Origin: a virus
Direction: 5' to 3' (one strand)
Length of the DNA stretch: 43,623 nt
IMG/VR virus record: IMGVR_UViG_3300015171_000011
Location: 1-43,623 of that record
The first letter of the stretch is position 1; every line of letters begins with the position of its first letter. Below the pieces are notes generated by a model. It had not been told where the DNA came from. It saw only the letters and a list, made by a program, of their open reading frames with translations, and made no database searches. Both the position numbers and the translations under genes were made by a program. Below are positions 37,091 through 43,623 of this stretch, piece by piece.

Positions 37091-37249
37091 TTACTTCTGT
37101 TTCACGGGAAACTGTCGTAACGTGAGGTGGTGTTCCCCGTCGTAGGTTGGTCCCCACGGACGCTCGACCACGGCGACGAGCCACTCGGCGTCTCGGTTCC
37201 CGAAGACCCGGAAGATGAGGGTCCAGTTAGGCAAGTCGGCTGAGTCCAC
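37091..37249 (-). CDS. Small hypothetical protein after TerL, about 52 aa
   Basis: Overlaps the TerL end in another frame. Possible starts are GTG at 37249 or TTG at 37234, and I cannot decide between them. The product (LPNWTLIFRVFGNRDAEWLV, then ending FPVKQK) looks like a small mixed alpha/beta protein. Function unknown. Confidence 0.5.
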   Translation of the reverse strand: MDSADLPNWTLIFRVFGNRDAEWLVAVVERPWGPTYDGEHHLTLRQFPVKQK

Positions 37250-38654
37250 GTTTGAGGGTCTTACCCCAACTGAGTCCGGGCTGGCCTCCCAGCGTAGCGG
37301 CATTACTCGCAAAGGTCAGGACCAAGGAATCCGCCACGTCAGGGCTACTCAAGCCTCTCCGGCGCATATCGTCCTTGGATTCCAGTTGGATCTTTCCCGA
37401 AGAAGAAAACTTGAAGCGAATGGAGGTCAACTCGGCCTTCAGCCGCTCACTCACACTGGTATTGGGGGGTAGTCCATCCACAGGTAGTTGGACATCTCGC
37501 CCTTGGAGCCACGCTAAACACTTGTAGAGCAGTTCCGCTCGGAGGTTGGCATGAGTCCCGGCGATACTGGGGCTTTCCGAGACGTTGATGCCCCTCACCG
37601 GGAGATTCAGCTCTCTCAACCGATCCACGACGCCAGCGCCCATCCCAATGGCATCCACCAGGATCTCGACGGGACGGTGTTTCTCGTCCAGAGCCTCCCA
37701 TTCTGCCACCACTCGTCCACAGAGCTGCATCAGGTCGAGGTTCCGCCAGACTCTTGGGGTTTCCGGGACCAACCGGCCCTTTCTCTTGCAGAGGACGCTG
37801 GAATCCGACCCAAACCGGGCTACGTCCAGTCCCCAGACCTCTGGGGTGTTCGGGGCCAGTTGGACTTCTCGCTCCATCGCCGCCACCACCAGATCCAAGG
37901 GAATGGCGGTGTCATCATCGCCTTGAGGGAACTGCCCTAAGACCCGCACCCGGTAGGCGTTGCTCTCCTCGCCATACCGGACCTTCATCTCTTCGACCCA
38001 ACTCTCAGGGACTCGCGGGCAGTCCAAGGTACTGACTTGGTAGGTACTCCAGCGGTCCTTCAGCTTGTGGTGGGTGTCGAAGAAATACCCCGACACTCTG
38101 ACGGGGTTGCCCATCAACAGCATCGCCGCGCCCTCTTGGGCCATCGAACCAGCCAAGCTCTCCATCGCCCGCTCATCCATCCCGGAGGCTTCGTCGATGA
38201 TCAGCAGGATCTTCCCCCCAACCGCATGGGCTCCTGCAATCGCTTCAGGGGTTTCGGCTCTCGCTGTTCTAATCGTGATGAAGGAAGAGGCTGGAGAGGC
38301 TTTGAGCTTGATGCTGTCGGATTGGATGTCCAAGAGGTCCTGAGTCGCCTTGGGCATCTGGCTAATCCACCGCAGTAACTCTGGATAAAATACATCGAAC
38401 AACTGCGGAGCGGAGGGGGCGGTGACCACCACTCTGACGGGGAGATGACACAACACCGTCCAGACCGCCGCCCACCCCTCCAAGGCCGTTTTCCCGACAC
38501 TGTGTCCAGAGGCCACCGAGATCTGCCGCTCTCCCAACGCCAGCTTTCGCAGGATATCGGCCTGCCACAGGTCCGGCTCTGCCTTGAACTGCTCCCGGAC
38601 AAACCGTACCGGGTCGTTCTGGTAGGTGTCCAAGAACTGCTTGAAAGGATTCAC
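37227..38654 (-). CDS. terL: Terminase large subunit, 475 aa
   Basis: ATPase: Walker A SGHSVGKT at residues 49-56 and Walker B ILLIIDEASG at about 149-157 (Glu155 catalytic). Nuclease: LDVARFGSD with Asp277, LVDAIGMG with Asp334 and SSPDVADSL with Asp439/Asp442, the three acidic sites of the RNase H-like fold. It pumps DNA into the prohead and cuts it. Length and motif order fit the P22/SU10 type of TerL. GTG start at 38654, first gene after the main late promoter. The small terminase is far away on the other strand. Confidence 0.95.
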   Translation of the reverse strand: MNPFKQFLDTYQNDPVRFVREQFKAEPDLWQADILRKLALGERQISVASGHSVGKTALEGWAAVWTVLCHLPVRVVVTAPSAPQLFDVFYPELLRWISQMPKATQDLLDIQSDSIKLKASPASSFITIRTARAETPEAIAGAHAVGGKILLIIDEASGMDERAMESLAGSMAQEGAAMLLMGNPVRVSGYFFDTHHKLKDRWSTYQVSTLDCPRVPESWVEEMKVRYGEESNAYRVRVLGQFPQGDDDTAIPLDLVVAAMEREVQLAPNTPEVWGLDVARFGSDSSVLCKRKGRLVPETPRVWRNLDLMQLCGRVVAEWEALDEKHRPVEILVDAIGMGAGVVDRLRELNLPVRGINVSESPSIAGTHANLRAELLYKCLAWLQGRDVQLPVDGLPPNTSVSERLKAELTSIRFKFSSSGKIQLESKDDMRRRGLSSPDVADSLVLTFASNAATLGGQPGLSWGKTLKRGLSRLA

Positions 38655-39499: not shown

Positions 39500-39754
39500 T
39501 CACTTCTTGGGCTTTTTGCCCCACCGCTTCGCGGCCCCCAACCGCCCGATCTCCGCAAGCTGTTCGGCGGTGAGGTTCTTCGCTCTCGCCTTCCCACCAA
39601 TCCGCCCACCCAACCGACCTAATGCGATAGCGGCGGGATTCTTTTTCACGGGTTTGGGCTTGGCGGGTTCTTCCGTGCTACCCGTCAGTCTCGCAACGGC
39701 ACGATGAGCCGCCACGTTGGGATCGGACGCTGGCTTGCTTGAGCGCTTTGGCAT
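39500..39754 (-). CDS. KGG-motif, histone-tail-like basic protein, 84 aa
   Basis: Residues about 38-80 (PAAIALGRLGGRIGGKARAK, NLTAEQLAEIGRLGAAKRWG) hold two glycine-rich basic motifs of the kind often labelled 'histone H1-like' or KGG/stress-type in bacteria. The rest is Lys/Pro-rich. It could bind nucleic acid. It follows the Ntn hydrolase by 8 nt in the same transcript. It is about 90 nt upstream of the tRNA. Confidence 0.7.
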   Translation of the reverse strand: MPKRSSKPASDPNVAAHRAVARLTGSTEEPAKPKPVKKNPAAIALGRLGGRIGGKARAKNLTAEQLAEIGRLGAAKRWGKKPKK

Positions 39755-39762
39755 CCATAAGG

Positions 39763-40653
39763 CTACTTATCCGCCGCGACCGGCGCAACCTCTCCATCGT
39801 TCCCCGTCTTGAGCGCCGCGATCGCCTTGACGACGCGATCTGACTGAACCGGGGGCACAAGCTCGGGGTAATGCTTACGGATGTTGTCCTTCACCATTTT
39901 GCCCACATCGTCGATAACCCCTTCAACCTTCGAAAGGTTCTTTCCCCACCCGTCTGGGTCGGCAAGGTAAAGGAGTCCGCGCGGCCCCACTGTCATCACA
40001 GCCGTATTCGATCGCTCATGTTCTGTCACCGTCTCCAACGGCATCTCGCCGATCAATCCCGCATCGTCAATCCACATGATCTGACTTGCGCCACCACACG
40101 ACAGAACAAACTTTTTGACCTGCGACAGGAGATATACAGCTAGGCGCATGACGTGGTATAACGGCCTATCCCAGACATAGTAGGTGTCAATCAGGTAGCG
40201 GGCGAGATGCTCTCCATAGCCAATCGTGATTGGCTGACACTCAATCAAGCTGCACCCGCGCCCCACCTTGACGAGCTGAACGCCTTCGCCCGAAACCCAC
40301 AACGCGCACAACAACTCAAACTCATGCCCGGATTCTTTCAGAGGCCGGATTCGTTTCTGATGAATCTCGGTGACAATCTTTTCAATGCCTTCCCGTAGTT
40401 CGGTGAGTGTTAGCCCATCGGGCAAACGCTGTCCAATCTCCTGAACAGCAAAGTCAATAAACTGACCGCCACCGGCACCGCCGATAAGGCACTTCCATTT
40501 TGTCTTTTCGATAGCCGCGATTTTGCGAACTGATGACTTGAGGACGTATCCGCTTTCCTCCGAGTCGGCAGCCAGCAAAACGAACGCACGTTCCGGGTTG
40601 TTTTCACCACTTACCTGCATCCCCTTGCCGGGGAATCCTGCGACGATGGTCAT
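39763..40653 (-). CDS. Proteasome/HslV-like Ntn hydrolase, 296 aa
   Basis: The protein starts M-T-I-V-A-G-F. Removing Met would expose Thr2 as the N-terminal nucleophile, as in HslV (TTIV). It continues with VLLAADSEESG, matching the family's VxAGD/VLAAD strand with its Asp (Asp30), then SSVRKIAAI with a Lys in the Lys33 position (Lys44), then CLIGGAGGGQFIDF, like IAGFAGG. These are the four conserved parts of the proteasome-beta/HslV fold. HslV is about 175 aa, so about 100 extra residues form a C-terminal part. No HslU or other unfoldase is nearby. AGGAAC precedes the ATG. A longer start at 40725 would hide the Thr. Confidence 0.78.
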   Translation of the reverse strand: MTIVAGFPGKGMQVSGENNPERAFVLLAADSEESGYVLKSSVRKIAAIEKTKWKCLIGGAGGGQFIDFAVQEIGQRLPDGLTLTELREGIEKIVTEIHQKRIRPLKESGHEFELLCALWVSGEGVQLVKVGRGCSLIECQPITIGYGEHLARYLIDTYYVWDRPLYHVMRLAVYLLSQVKKFVLSCGGASQIMWIDDAGLIGEMPLETVTEHERSNTAVMTVGPRGLLYLADPDGWGKNLSKVEGVIDDVGKMVKDNIRKHYPELVPPVQSDRVVKAIAALKTGNDGEVAPVAADK

Positions 40654-40723
40654 GGGTGGCCGTTCCTGTGGGGGTCGGGCCGGAACATAGCGCGGGGTCA
40701 ACGGCGGGGCGTAGGTTCTAGTC

Positions 40724-41155
40724 ATGCTAAAGCCCACCCGTAGAGAGTGGCTGCTCTTTTTTGTGGCCGCTTGCCTGTTGGCTAGTACGCTCATCCTGGA
40801 GCAAGGCCGCTATGAGGACGCCAAGGCCAATGCAGCATATAACGGCCTGCGCGATGCCGCGCCAAAACGCGCGGAGGAGCGGATCGCCACCTACAACGGC
40901 TGGTTGGTGAGAGTCACGTTGGTATTGGGCGTAGCTACGATCGCCCTGTTCATCGTCACGCGAATGCCCGGAATCCGTGACGGGAGTAGCGGCGAGCAGT
41001 TGTTCATCGCGGGACGATGCGACTATCGCGACGTGTTTGGGGTAAAGCACTGGACCAAGTGCTGCTACGCGATTTGTTGGCGGGGCGGGAGATTTAGTCA
41101 TCCCGAGGTTACGGCCTTCTATAACAACACTGACGACGAAGAACAGGGGGTATAG
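40724..41155 (+). CDS. Two-helix membrane protein, 143 aa
   Basis: Divergent from the Ntn hydrolase with 70 nt between starts. Helices at about residues 8-26 (EWLLFFVAACLLASTLIL) and 60-80 (WLVRVTLVLGVATIALFIV), joined by a charged loop, then a soluble end with several Cys, Trp and His (CCYAICWRGG). It could have the soluble end in the cytoplasm. No family recognised; it might be a host-takeover or superinfection-exclusion protein, but only by analogy of size and shape. Confidence 0.65.
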   Translation: MLKPTRREWLLFFVAACLLASTLILEQGRYEDAKANAAYNGLRDAAPKRAEERIATYNGWLVRVTLVLGVATIALFIVTRMPGIRDGSSGEQLFIAGRCDYRDVFGVKHWTKCCYAICWRGGRFSHPEVTAFYNNTDDEEQGV

Positions 41156-41216: not shown

Positions 41217-41237
41217 AGTGACCGATAATCAGTCACT
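41217..41237. promoter_or_regulatory. Operator-like palindrome AGTGAC-N9-GTCACT
   Basis: A perfect 6+6 inverted repeat; a third GTCACT lies at 41246-41251. It is in the 490-nt gap (41156-41645) before the early plus-strand run. A repressor binding site is plausible. Confidence 0.5.
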
Positions 41238-41347
41238 TTTCAATTGTCACTTTCAAGTTGACCCAGTACCGTGTCTGGCTTGTGTGGTAGGGCAGGAGCG
41301 AAGCGGAGAGCAGAGACAGGAGCAAGAGCAAGCGGTTTGAGAGGGGG

Positions 41348-41645: not shown

Positions 41646-41849
41646 ATGACGGTCCGCGACGCAATGCAAATGATGTATGATGCCGCCAAGGGTGGCGCGA
41701 GGCTCACAGAGGTTGAGGCGCCCTTGCTGGCGGCTGGCCTCAATCGGTTGCGGGTCGTCATGCTGGTGCAAGAGGCGATTGGCGCCAAGCACCTTCGGAT
41801 GGACCGCAAGACGCTCAAGATTCACGCACTGAACCCCGTCCCCCGCTAG
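41646..41849 (+). CDS. First early gene, small hypothetical protein, 67 aa
   Basis: The ATG at 41646 has CGGAG about 11 nt upstream; an in-frame ATG at 41619 lacks one. Helical protein, basic towards the end (KHLRMDRKTLKIHALNPVPR). The last third is the sequence repeated at position 1. On a circular map this gene leads directly into the left-end genes. Function unknown. Confidence 0.65.
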   Translation: MTVRDAMQMMYDAAKGGARLTEVEAPLLAAGLNRLRVVMLVQEAIGAKHLRMDRKTLKIHALNPVPR

Positions 41850-41875
41850 ACACCTTACAAGGAGCAGAACAAATG
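41749..41875. repeat. Exact 127-nt direct repeat, right copy
   Basis: Identical to 1-127. Beyond it the sequence continues as a different allele of the left-end region. Marks the probable circular join at about 41.75 kb. Confidence 0.95.
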
Positions 41876-42145
41876 AAGCTGGCAATCATCGAACACTTTC
41901 GGCGGGTCGAGGGCGGCGTGATGTTGGAAGCGATCACGGGGCCAATCGACGCAGAGGTGGCGCGGGAACGGGTCCGGCTTGGTGGCAGCTCTCCCGTGAA
42001 GGCCCGGCGATGCGTGGAGATCGAAGACGGCAAGCTCACCTTCACCTGTGCCACGATGGGCCGAGATTTCGACGCCGCCTATCCCAAGACGTTCTCCCAG
42101 CAAGCGCAACACTGGCTGGCGTCCCGTACCCCCAAGGAGGGATGA
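41873..42145 (+). CDS. Hypothetical protein of the alternative allele, 90 aa
   Basis: Starts at the ATG inside the 127-nt repeat with the same AAGGAG site as the gene at 125, but encodes a different protein (MKLAIIEHFRRVEGGVMLEA). Mixed alpha/beta. It is followed 4 nt later by another gene absent from the left allele. Function unknown. Confidence 0.65.
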   Translation: MKLAIIEHFRRVEGGVMLEAITGPIDAEVARERVRLGGSSPVKARRCVEIEDGKLTFTCATMGRDFDAAYPKTFSQQAQHWLASRTPKEG

Positions 42146-42149
42146 AATC

Positions 42150-42329
42150 ATGGCCAAGATCAAGGCGGGCGACGTGGTAACGGTAAAGGCCGGGGGAAGC
42201 GCCACAGGAAAAACGGGCGTGGTGGTGGAGTACGTGCAAACCTACCGGGGTCAGGATCTTTGGGCCGTCCTGCTGAACGATGCGACGGTGGAGCACCTTG
42301 CCTCATCCGGCCTAGAGATTCGCAAGTGA
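42150..42329 (+). CDS. KOW-like small protein, 59 aa
   Basis: IKAGDVVTVKAGGSATGKTGVVVEY at residues about 4-28 resembles a KOW motif, the small beta-barrel found in ribosomal proteins and NusG, where it contacts RNA or RNA polymerase. A role in transcription or translation modulation is possible but unproven. AAGGAGG about 10 nt upstream. Its stop overlaps the next GTG start. Confidence 0.65.
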   Translation: MAKIKAGDVVTVKAGGSATGKTGVVVEYVQTYRGQDLWAVLLNDATVEHLASSGLEIRK

Positions 42330-42598
42330 ACGACCATGCGGGGTTCGTGGCAGACCGCCCCTCAACGATGGTCGGGCCGCTGGTCTGCGTCCTCGCCGGG
42401 AATGCGCGGGAGGCGGAACGCTGGTTTCGGGCAAACGACGTTCCTTGGCACCGGCAACGCTATATCGCAAGGGTCGAACACCTATACGGACTGCGGGGCG
42501 TCAGGTGTGCGAGGGTGGGAACATGGTACGCCAATCCCGCCTATGCGTCCGAACATTTCGCCGCCCGCTTAATGCTGGCCGAACATGCCGAAGCGTAA
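42326..42598 (+). CDS. Hypothetical protein of the alternative allele, 90 aa
   Basis: GTG start overlapping the previous TGA. Helical and basic (REAERWFRANDVPWHRQRYIAR). No family recognised. Last gene before the conserved 32-nt hairpin. Confidence 0.6.
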   Translation: MNDHAGFVADRPSTMVGPLVCVLAGNAREAERWFRANDVPWHRQRYIARVEHLYGLRGVRCARVGTWYANPAYASEHFAARLMLAEHAEA

Positions 42599-42600
42599 CA

Positions 42601-42632
42601 AGCTCCCGTCGCTGGCCGGTAGCCAGCCCACA
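42601..42632 (+). other. Conserved non-coding hairpin, right copy
   Basis: Identical to 352-383 although the genes on both sides differ between the two alleles. Same GCTGGC-CGGTA-GCCAGC stem-loop. Located between the stop at 42598 and the ATG at 42649. Confidence 0.6.
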
Positions 42633-42648
42633 ACAAGAGGGCCGAACG

Positions 42649-42936
42649 ATGACAAAGCTGTACGGGGAGAATCTCGCCCGCTGGATTCTGCGCCGCGCCG
42701 GGGACCACGCGAGGGGAGAGGCGTTCGCCCGCAAACAGCTCGCCGCCGCCACCATGTCGGACGATGTGGGACGTTGGCACCACGCAGCCTCTTTGATCGC
42801 GGAGTGGGGCCGCAACGAGGAGCCGCCTTGCCTGGTCTGTCTCGCCCCGCTCCAAATGTTCGTGTCCTTTATCTGCCGAGAGTGCCAGTTCCCACCCCTA
42901 ACCGGAGAGACGAAAAATGAATGTGTTTACGGATGA
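42649..42936 (+). CDS. Cysteine-containing hypothetical protein, 95 aa
   Basis: Replaces the left allele's 125-aa acidic gene. Helical N-terminal two thirds, then CLVC at about 71-74 and CREC at about 85-88, a probable zinc ribbon at the C-terminus. It overlaps the next gene by 20 nt. Function unknown. Confidence 0.6.
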   Translation: MTKLYGENLARWILRRAGDHARGEAFARKQLAAATMSDDVGRWHHAASLIAEWGRNEEPPCLVCLAPLQMFVSFICRECQFPPLTGETKNECVYG

Positions 42937-43114
42937 ATCCGACGACTGGCATACCGAGCCGGACGTACTACAAGCCCGCGTCGATGCCTGTAGAAAGCGC
43001 CTGGAATACGCAAGGCAGACCAAGGAGGCAAGAGGCATGATCGTCGTCTCTGCGGCCATGTGGGCGTTTCTCGGGCTGTTCGTGCTGTTGACGCTGACCG
43101 GGCTACTCCGCTAG
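42917..43114 (+). CDS. Small membrane protein, 65 aa (allele of 951-1142)
   Basis: The first 33 residues are identical to the left copy, while the membrane helix (about residues 40-62) has diverged. Single C-terminal transmembrane segment. Here the next gene does not overlap; about 120 nt with nothing evident separate it from the inserted gene at 43234. Confidence 0.75.
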   Translation: MNVFTDESDDWHTEPDVLQARVDACRKRLEYARQTKEARGMIVVSAAMWAFLGLFVLLTLTGLLR

Positions 43115-43233
43115 GTGCAAGGATTCTTGCAGAAAGCGGGATGCGCGAAAAGGACACGGCGTTACGCAGCAACGACTTAGCAGCGGCACGGAACCTGCTA
43201 AGACTAGGGACAGAACCTCAACGGGAGACACCA

Positions 43234-43419
43234 ATGCAGACCTATGAAACGCTAGCCCGCCGCATGGTCAAGAAGTATGGCCGCGACGCGGCGCGGAAAA
43301 GTGTCGAGGCGCAGCGAGACGACGCGGTACAGACCGGCAGCGGTGCGACGGTGCTCTATCTAAACGAGGTACTCCACGCCCTTGAGATGAGCGTGCCGGC
43401 GCGGGGGGCTGCTGCATGA
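43234..43419 (+). CDS. Hypothetical protein absent from the left allele, 61 aa
   Basis: ATG at 43234 with GGGAG 8 nt upstream. Basic helical protein (MVKKYGRDAARKSVEAQRDD). In the left allele no such gene lies between the membrane protein and the 46-aa gene, so this is a cassette insertion. ATGA overlap with the next gene. Confidence 0.65.
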   Translation: MQTYETLARRMVKKYGRDAARKSVEAQRDDAVQTGSGATVLYLNEVLHALEMSVPARGAAA

Positions 43420-43556
43420 CCCTCTACGAAATGCTGACCTACTACCGCGAGGAGTGCGGCAACCTCCAGCGCTACGGCGAGGACTTCCGCCAGCTCGTCA
43501 ACGACTGGGCCTCCCTGCTCTGGAAAAAGCATGGCATCTGGGTGGTGATCCCGTGA
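43416..43556 (+). CDS. Small conserved early protein, 46 aa (allele of 1139-1279)
   Basis: Homologue of the left-end gene with the C-terminal two thirds nearly identical (RYGEDFRQLVNDWAS). ATGA at its start and GTGA at its end keep the coupled order. Confidence 0.7.
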   Translation: MTLYEMLTYYREECGNLQRYGEDFRQLVNDWASLLWKKHGIWVVIP

Positions 43557-43623
43557 CCGTAGCGGCTTGGGAGACGTTGCGGGTCATTCTCTGGAGCTTT
43601 GCCGCTGGACTGGCGTTAGGGAA
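43553..43623 (+). CDS. 5' part of the 40-aa membrane protein gene (truncated by window end)
   Basis: GTG start overlapping the previous stop. The visible 23 residues match the left copy (1276-1398) apart from the start codon and silent changes. Cut off by the end of the window. Confidence 0.65.
   Translation, partial: MTVAAWETLRVILWSFAAGLALG

Follow-up and report, generated by a model that had tools for sequence, protein, structure and literature searches.

The window analysed here is the whole of a virus record (IMGVR_UViG_3300015171_000011; 43,623 nucleotides), whose two ends, positions 1–1346 and 41749–43623, repeat each other at 87–100% identity. The differences between them are of strain level; the record thus probably covers nearly the whole genome, and it seems to join two strain variants of a terminal or wrap-around region. 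Its genes for terminase, portal, scaffold and capsid proteins have matches in known tailed-phage families. The closest terminases are those of Manatee Spring phages and of Sinorhizobium phage phiM5; the Ntn gene described below is absent from the regions read around those related terminases. A minus-strand frame free of stops runs from 40794 to 39763, and its ATG at 40653 opens a protein of 296 amino acids. The locus is organized as follows:

37227–38654, minus strand: terminase large subunit gene, which places the locus in a tailed-phage genome.
39336–39408, minus strand: tRNA-Thr(CGT), flanked by the companion gene and the terminase gene.
39500–39754, minus strand: companion gene starting 8 bp past the Ntn stop; its 84-aa product has the motifs DPN and GGxxGGKAR and is homologous to small proteins encoded inside IS1-type elements.
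39763–40653, minus strand: proteasome-β-like Ntn hydrolase gene, 296 aa, predicted mature N-terminus Thr2 (Pfam PF00227, family profile against the PDB, AF2 core model with Foldseek).
40654–40725, minus strand: in-frame leader MTRTYAPPLTPRYVPARPPQERPP with an alternative ATG at 40725, Pro/Lys/Arg-rich and typical of transposon-borne copies.
40724–41155, plus strand: divergently oriented ORF of 143 aa that lies between the Ntn gene and the repeat relic and apparently has membrane-spanning segments.
41252–41270, minus strand: relic of an IS1-type terminal inverted repeat, GGTACTGGGTCAACTTGAA, matching at 17/19 positions, in left-end orientation for the Ntn gene.

The locus encodes a protein of proteasome-β fold. 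A first-pass annotation had proposed a proteasome-type N-terminal-Thr hydrolase with a Met-Thr start, and the fold, the family profile and the conserved Thr/Asp/Lys/Gly residues agree with it. The single phage sequence matches the Pfam Proteasome model (PF00227) over residues 24–180 with E = 1e-4, just above the cut-off. It has no PHROG, phage or plasmid match, and scans for close relatives with this one protein returned nothing from viral contigs, genome contigs, plasmid records or 50,697 phage records. Matches from phmmer to designed repeat proteins were discarded as coiled-coil noise, and the pattern IGGAG..D led to an unrelated tail-protein family. Degenerate patterns recovered two relatives on viral contigs, L144 and L145, with 21–25% identity over the aligned length (pairwise BLASTP E-values of 1e-10 and 7e-6), and a third, L146, comes from an Acidobacteriaceae genome. 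A ten-member profile locates the gene in 49 of 399 Acidobacteriae genomes, the cellular genomes sampled for the family and its cargo role being Acidobacteriota only. A PADLOC search for defence genes left the phage protein without a match and returned one weak match among ten family members.

A profile search and a structure prediction, the checks that the first-pass annotation had proposed, both point to the proteasome. The family profile matches 228 PDB chains; every one of the 60 listed is a 20S proteasome subunit (best E = 3.9e-8), and the phage T2 falls on the mature Thr1 of β2. An archaeal proteasome β model is matched by seven of the ten family members, and phrog_1040 ('peptidase HslV family') by two. 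The AF2 core model (201 residues; pLDDT 79.9, pTM 0.80), built from eleven sequences from the window and contigs, is an alpha-beta-beta-alpha sandwich with an S1–S11 core and helices H1–H4 in the order S1 S2 .. H1 H2 .. H3 H4, where H1 spans residues 63–76 and H2 residues 83–100; the last ~95 residues lie outside the confident model. Foldseek returned 1181 matches at E ≤ 0.001, the best 50 of which are all proteasome or Anbu; the listed 20S β and Anbu matches reach E = 3.5e-10 with query TM-scores of 0.63–0.76. Viral matches were also present in a BFVD search of the model. An earlier AF2 model from four sequences was too weak to stand alone (pLDDT 42), and its listed Foldseek matches were all proteasome.

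The label 'HslV-like' is therefore less apt: among the matches listed, the sequence profiles lie nearest to 20S β and the fold nearest to 20S β and Anbu. None of the 60 listed PDB profile matches is HslV, and a non-exhaustive search of the window recognised no HslU partner. Anbu (5nyw, 5lox) is the second-best fold match among those listed (TM 0.71 to the query) but is absent by sequence from the 60 listed profile matches. The 20S β subunit (PF00227, TIGR03634) shares with the phage protein the fold, H1–H4, the Thr nucleophile, the Asp, the Lys and the oxyanion Gly, whereas the phage protein lacks the Ser129/Asp166/Ser169 residues and carries a C-terminal extension and a 12-residue insert in its first hairpin. 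The extension, ~95 residues long, corresponds to the ~100 extra residues noted at first reading. All four motifs read from the translation (MTIVAGF, VLLAADSE, SSVRKI and IGGAGGG) are present and supply T2, D30, K44 and G58–G61. Their spacing, which the first-pass annotation took to be roughly that of HslV and the proteasome, fits for D30–K44 (14) and K44–G59 (15), but T2–D30 is 28 instead of 16 because of the hairpin insert, which among the compared proteins occurs only in the phage protein. The resemblance exceeds what chance would give. The active-site features map as follows:

40648–40650, minus strand: codon of Thr2, the predicted nucleophile (proteasome Thr1), aligned to Thr1 of mature β2; T in 42/43 and S in 1/43 family members.
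40564–40566, minus strand: codon of Asp30 (proteasome Asp17); D in 43/43.
40522–40524, minus strand: codon of Lys44 (proteasome Lys33); Lys in 42/43, Arg in 1/43.
40471–40482, minus strand: G58-G-A-G61, the oxyanion Gly region (proteasome Gly47), from family alignments and column counts.

Homologues lacking the Thr/Asp/Lys set had been named as evidence that would speak against the assignment; across 43 very divergent relatives the set is kept, and Gly145 is invariant. Typical terminal branches in the family tree measure ~1 change per site; selection therefore acts on the Thr/Asp/Lys/Gly set, which has persisted despite such divergence. By profile alignment the phage protein has Tyr146, Val183 and Cys186 where the proteasome has Ser129, Asp166 and Ser169, positions that are unconserved in the family, so catalytic activity of the predicted enzyme cannot be assumed. 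Its likely function is Thr-dependent hydrolysis of peptide bonds in small, unfolded or specific protein targets; the oligomeric state and the targets of the phage protein are predictions. A non-exhaustive search of the window recognised no unfoldase or other partner beside the Ntn gene and no proteasome genes around it.

Two start codons have support. The first-pass annotation had set 40653 against an alternative start at 40725, and initiation at 40653 is backed by a rule without exception: every one of the 44 copies has ATG, GTG or TTG immediately before the Thr codon, and wherever this triplet would read Val (16 copies) it is GTG, a codon that makes up 27% of Val codons within the genes. The ribosome-site strength before the Thr start averages −6.7 kcal/mol compared with a background of −2.7, and several chromosomal copies have a stop codon 1–3 codons upstream. 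The start at 40725 is supported too. Many copies carry an in-frame upstream leader of ~20–30 residues, rich in Pro/Lys/Arg, with its own ribosome-binding site; the Shine-Dalgarno estimate for the phage is −7.0 kcal/mol at 40725, compared with −4.9 at 40653. The leader composition is frame-specific (0.42, versus 0.18 and 0.25 in the other frames). Upstream starts with a strong site lie in frame in 22/33 leader-type copies, compared with 2/33 in each other frame and 0/11 in the remaining copies, a grouping that is itself partly leader-based. The leader occurs in 25/29 copies bearing terminal repeats and in 3/14 others (Fisher p = 6e-5), with L346 and L347 assigned by likeness to the L336/L342 repeat, not by score. 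The layout is most simply read as two starts and suggests two predicted products in the transposon copies; the phage keeps it, and we infer two isoforms there as well. A leader belonging to the IS1 cargo slot, not to the gene, was considered and rejected: in a sample of 101 genomes, the slot of other IS1 copies is empty or is occupied by short membrane-type ORFs that lack a leader of this kind. The leaders may resemble proline-rich antimicrobial peptides.

IS1- and IS1595-type transposons carry the Ntn family as cargo, both in Acidobacteriae genomes and on viral contigs. In the relatives, a Pfam-supported IS1- or IS1595-type transposase directly follows the Ntn gene, usually in convergent orientation, and 19 complete elements of 2.0–4.4 kb hold the gene inside matching terminal inverted repeats, 18 of them in Acidobacteriae genomes and one on the viral contig L144. 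Target duplications of 8–10 bp flank 17 of the 19, where chance expectation is far below one. Members borne by the same transposon type are dispersed over the Ntn tree, so the cargo has moved from one transposon family to another. A second small gene is frequent in IS1-type elements, and its protein has DPNQLA and GGxxGGKxR motifs. In L367, L372 and L390, the Ntn slot of IS1-type elements is taken by other ORFs, which seem to encode membrane proteins. A variant IS1595-like terminal repeat, GGAAGTATGTACTTTACGCAA, lies upstream of L336, L342, L346 and L347, with one base differing in L346.

The phage copy, compared with IS1/IS1595 passengers that sit between terminal repeats beside a transposase with an 8–10 bp target duplication, is no longer an intact element. 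Its companion protein is 44% identical to that of L337. The match of the repeat relic was equalled in none of 100 shuffles; the relic scores 20 bits, reached by 1 of 200 shuffles, the next best site in the window scores 8, and 2.43 Mb of unrelated viral contigs contain no site of at least 19 bits. No partner for this repeat and no IS1595-type ends were found in the window, and tblastn detected no IS1 or IS1595 transposase there. The divergent 143-aa ORF has no Pfam, PHROG or phage match. GTGAC/GTCAC repeats at 41230–41270, beside the relic, may be operator sites. From the companion gene, the Pro/Arg-rich leader and the IS1-type repeat we conclude that the phage copy is probably a captured, now fixed transposon piece. 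Several points count against this reading: the repeat is single, the transposase is absent, the relic lies 617 bp upstream of the Ntn gene (usually 80–240 bp; 525 in L332), and in most elements the companion gene is oriented differently. In the tree, moreover, the long branch of the phage protein lies beside an IS1595-borne copy (support 84/92), yet the relic is IS1-type.

We give a probability of about three in four to the joint reading that the protein is a Thr2 hydrolase of the transposon-cargo family, that the phage copy is a captured, immobile IS1-type piece, and that a second, leader-bearing form is predicted. Translation from the ATG at 40653 followed by Met removal would expose an N-terminal Thr near Asp30, Lys44 and the Gly58–61 oxyanion turn. 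The family spreads as IS1- and IS1595-type cargo in Acidobacteriota, and the phage most likely captured an IS1-type piece, keeping the Ntn gene with its leader, the companion gene and one repeat while losing the transposase and the other repeat. Initiation at 40725 would probably yield a leader-bearing form with the Thr buried, inactive unless processed. The most likely activity would be Thr-dependent peptide-bond hydrolysis without a dedicated unfoldase.

Four other explanations deserve weighing against this captured-cargo reading. The gene could encode a self-compartmentalising protease of the HslV/PPH kind that evolved within phages, borrows the host's AAA+ unfoldase and remodels host proteins, its transposon traits being incidental. 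PPH and AAH are indeed known from phages (PMC8665760), PHROG 1040 HslV matches two of ten family members, and many proteins on viral contigs (L087, L090–L137) belong to the phage proteasome-homolog type, with an MTVVAG..ADS sequence and 158–168 aa, a length unlike that of the phage protein. With no close relative among the phage records, transposon-borne nearest relatives, and 20S β rather than HslV as the closest solved structures by sequence among the matches listed, such an origin is unlikely. We judge just as improbable a single precursor translated from 40725, whose Pro/Arg-rich leader would be an autocatalytically removed propeptide as in proteasome β. The conserved leader character in transposon copies and the strong upstream ribosome sites would suit it, but the invariant start codon before the Thr, with Val always as GTG, the ribosome site at the Thr start, commoner than background, and the stops just upstream in several chromosomal copies speak against it.

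Less likely again is an enzyme that, like connectase, would act as a monomeric ligase or amidase on specific substrates, not as a protease. Connectase is close to the phage protein in total length, and the ~95-residue C-terminal extension and the lack of a recognised unfoldase alongside are in its favour. Connectase lacks H1 and H2 and has a two-helix insert between S3 and S4 (PMC8665760), whereas the model of the phage protein has both helices and no S3/S4 helices. The least probable of the four is a decaying passenger without function in the phage. The loss of the transposase and one repeat and the long branch fit this explanation; the 296-codon open frame and intact Thr/Asp/Lys/Gly set argue against decay, as does a codon-position GC pattern like that of the phage's other genes.

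The first-pass annotation knew of no characterised example in this phage type, a statement now out of date: phage proteasome homologs have been published (PPH, AAH and others; PMC8665760), and both phrog_1040 and the BFVD matches belong to this picture. PPH, AAH and phrog_1040 are likewise phage-encoded proteasome-like proteins. PPH has ~140 residues and lacks H2 (PMC8665760), whereas the phage protein, at 296 aa, has H2 and ~95 extra C-terminal residues. PMI-4, compared by description, has insertions after H1/H2 and between H3 and H4; no large insert is seen there in the core model. Twenty-two subfamilies of proteasome homologs have been published. A literature search found no report of a proteasome-like passenger in IS1/IS1595 elements, and although phage proteasome homologs are known, a transposon-cargo proteasome-like family with a two-start layout is, to our knowledge, unreported.

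Apart from some phage homologs, the relatives of the proteasome are mostly treated as machines of the cell. A large, fast-evolving proteasome-like branch carried as insertion-sequence cargo provides a concrete route into phages, and the cargo status suggests that proteasome-like enzymes serve mobile elements. We tentatively propose, at somewhat less than even odds, that one class of transposon cargo consists of proteasome-like enzymes and moves between unrelated IS families and into phages; each transposon-borne two-start gene would yield free-Thr catalytic subunits and leader-capped subunits with a Pro/Lys/Arg-rich tail, or else a leader peptide with a role of its own. The cargo status also makes the role of orphan bacterial proteasome homologs testable in small, defined elements. 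The DNA coding RLPERK-like leader ends is similar (CGGCTTCC) across transposon types, in L144, L309, L313, L315, L323, L344 and L346.
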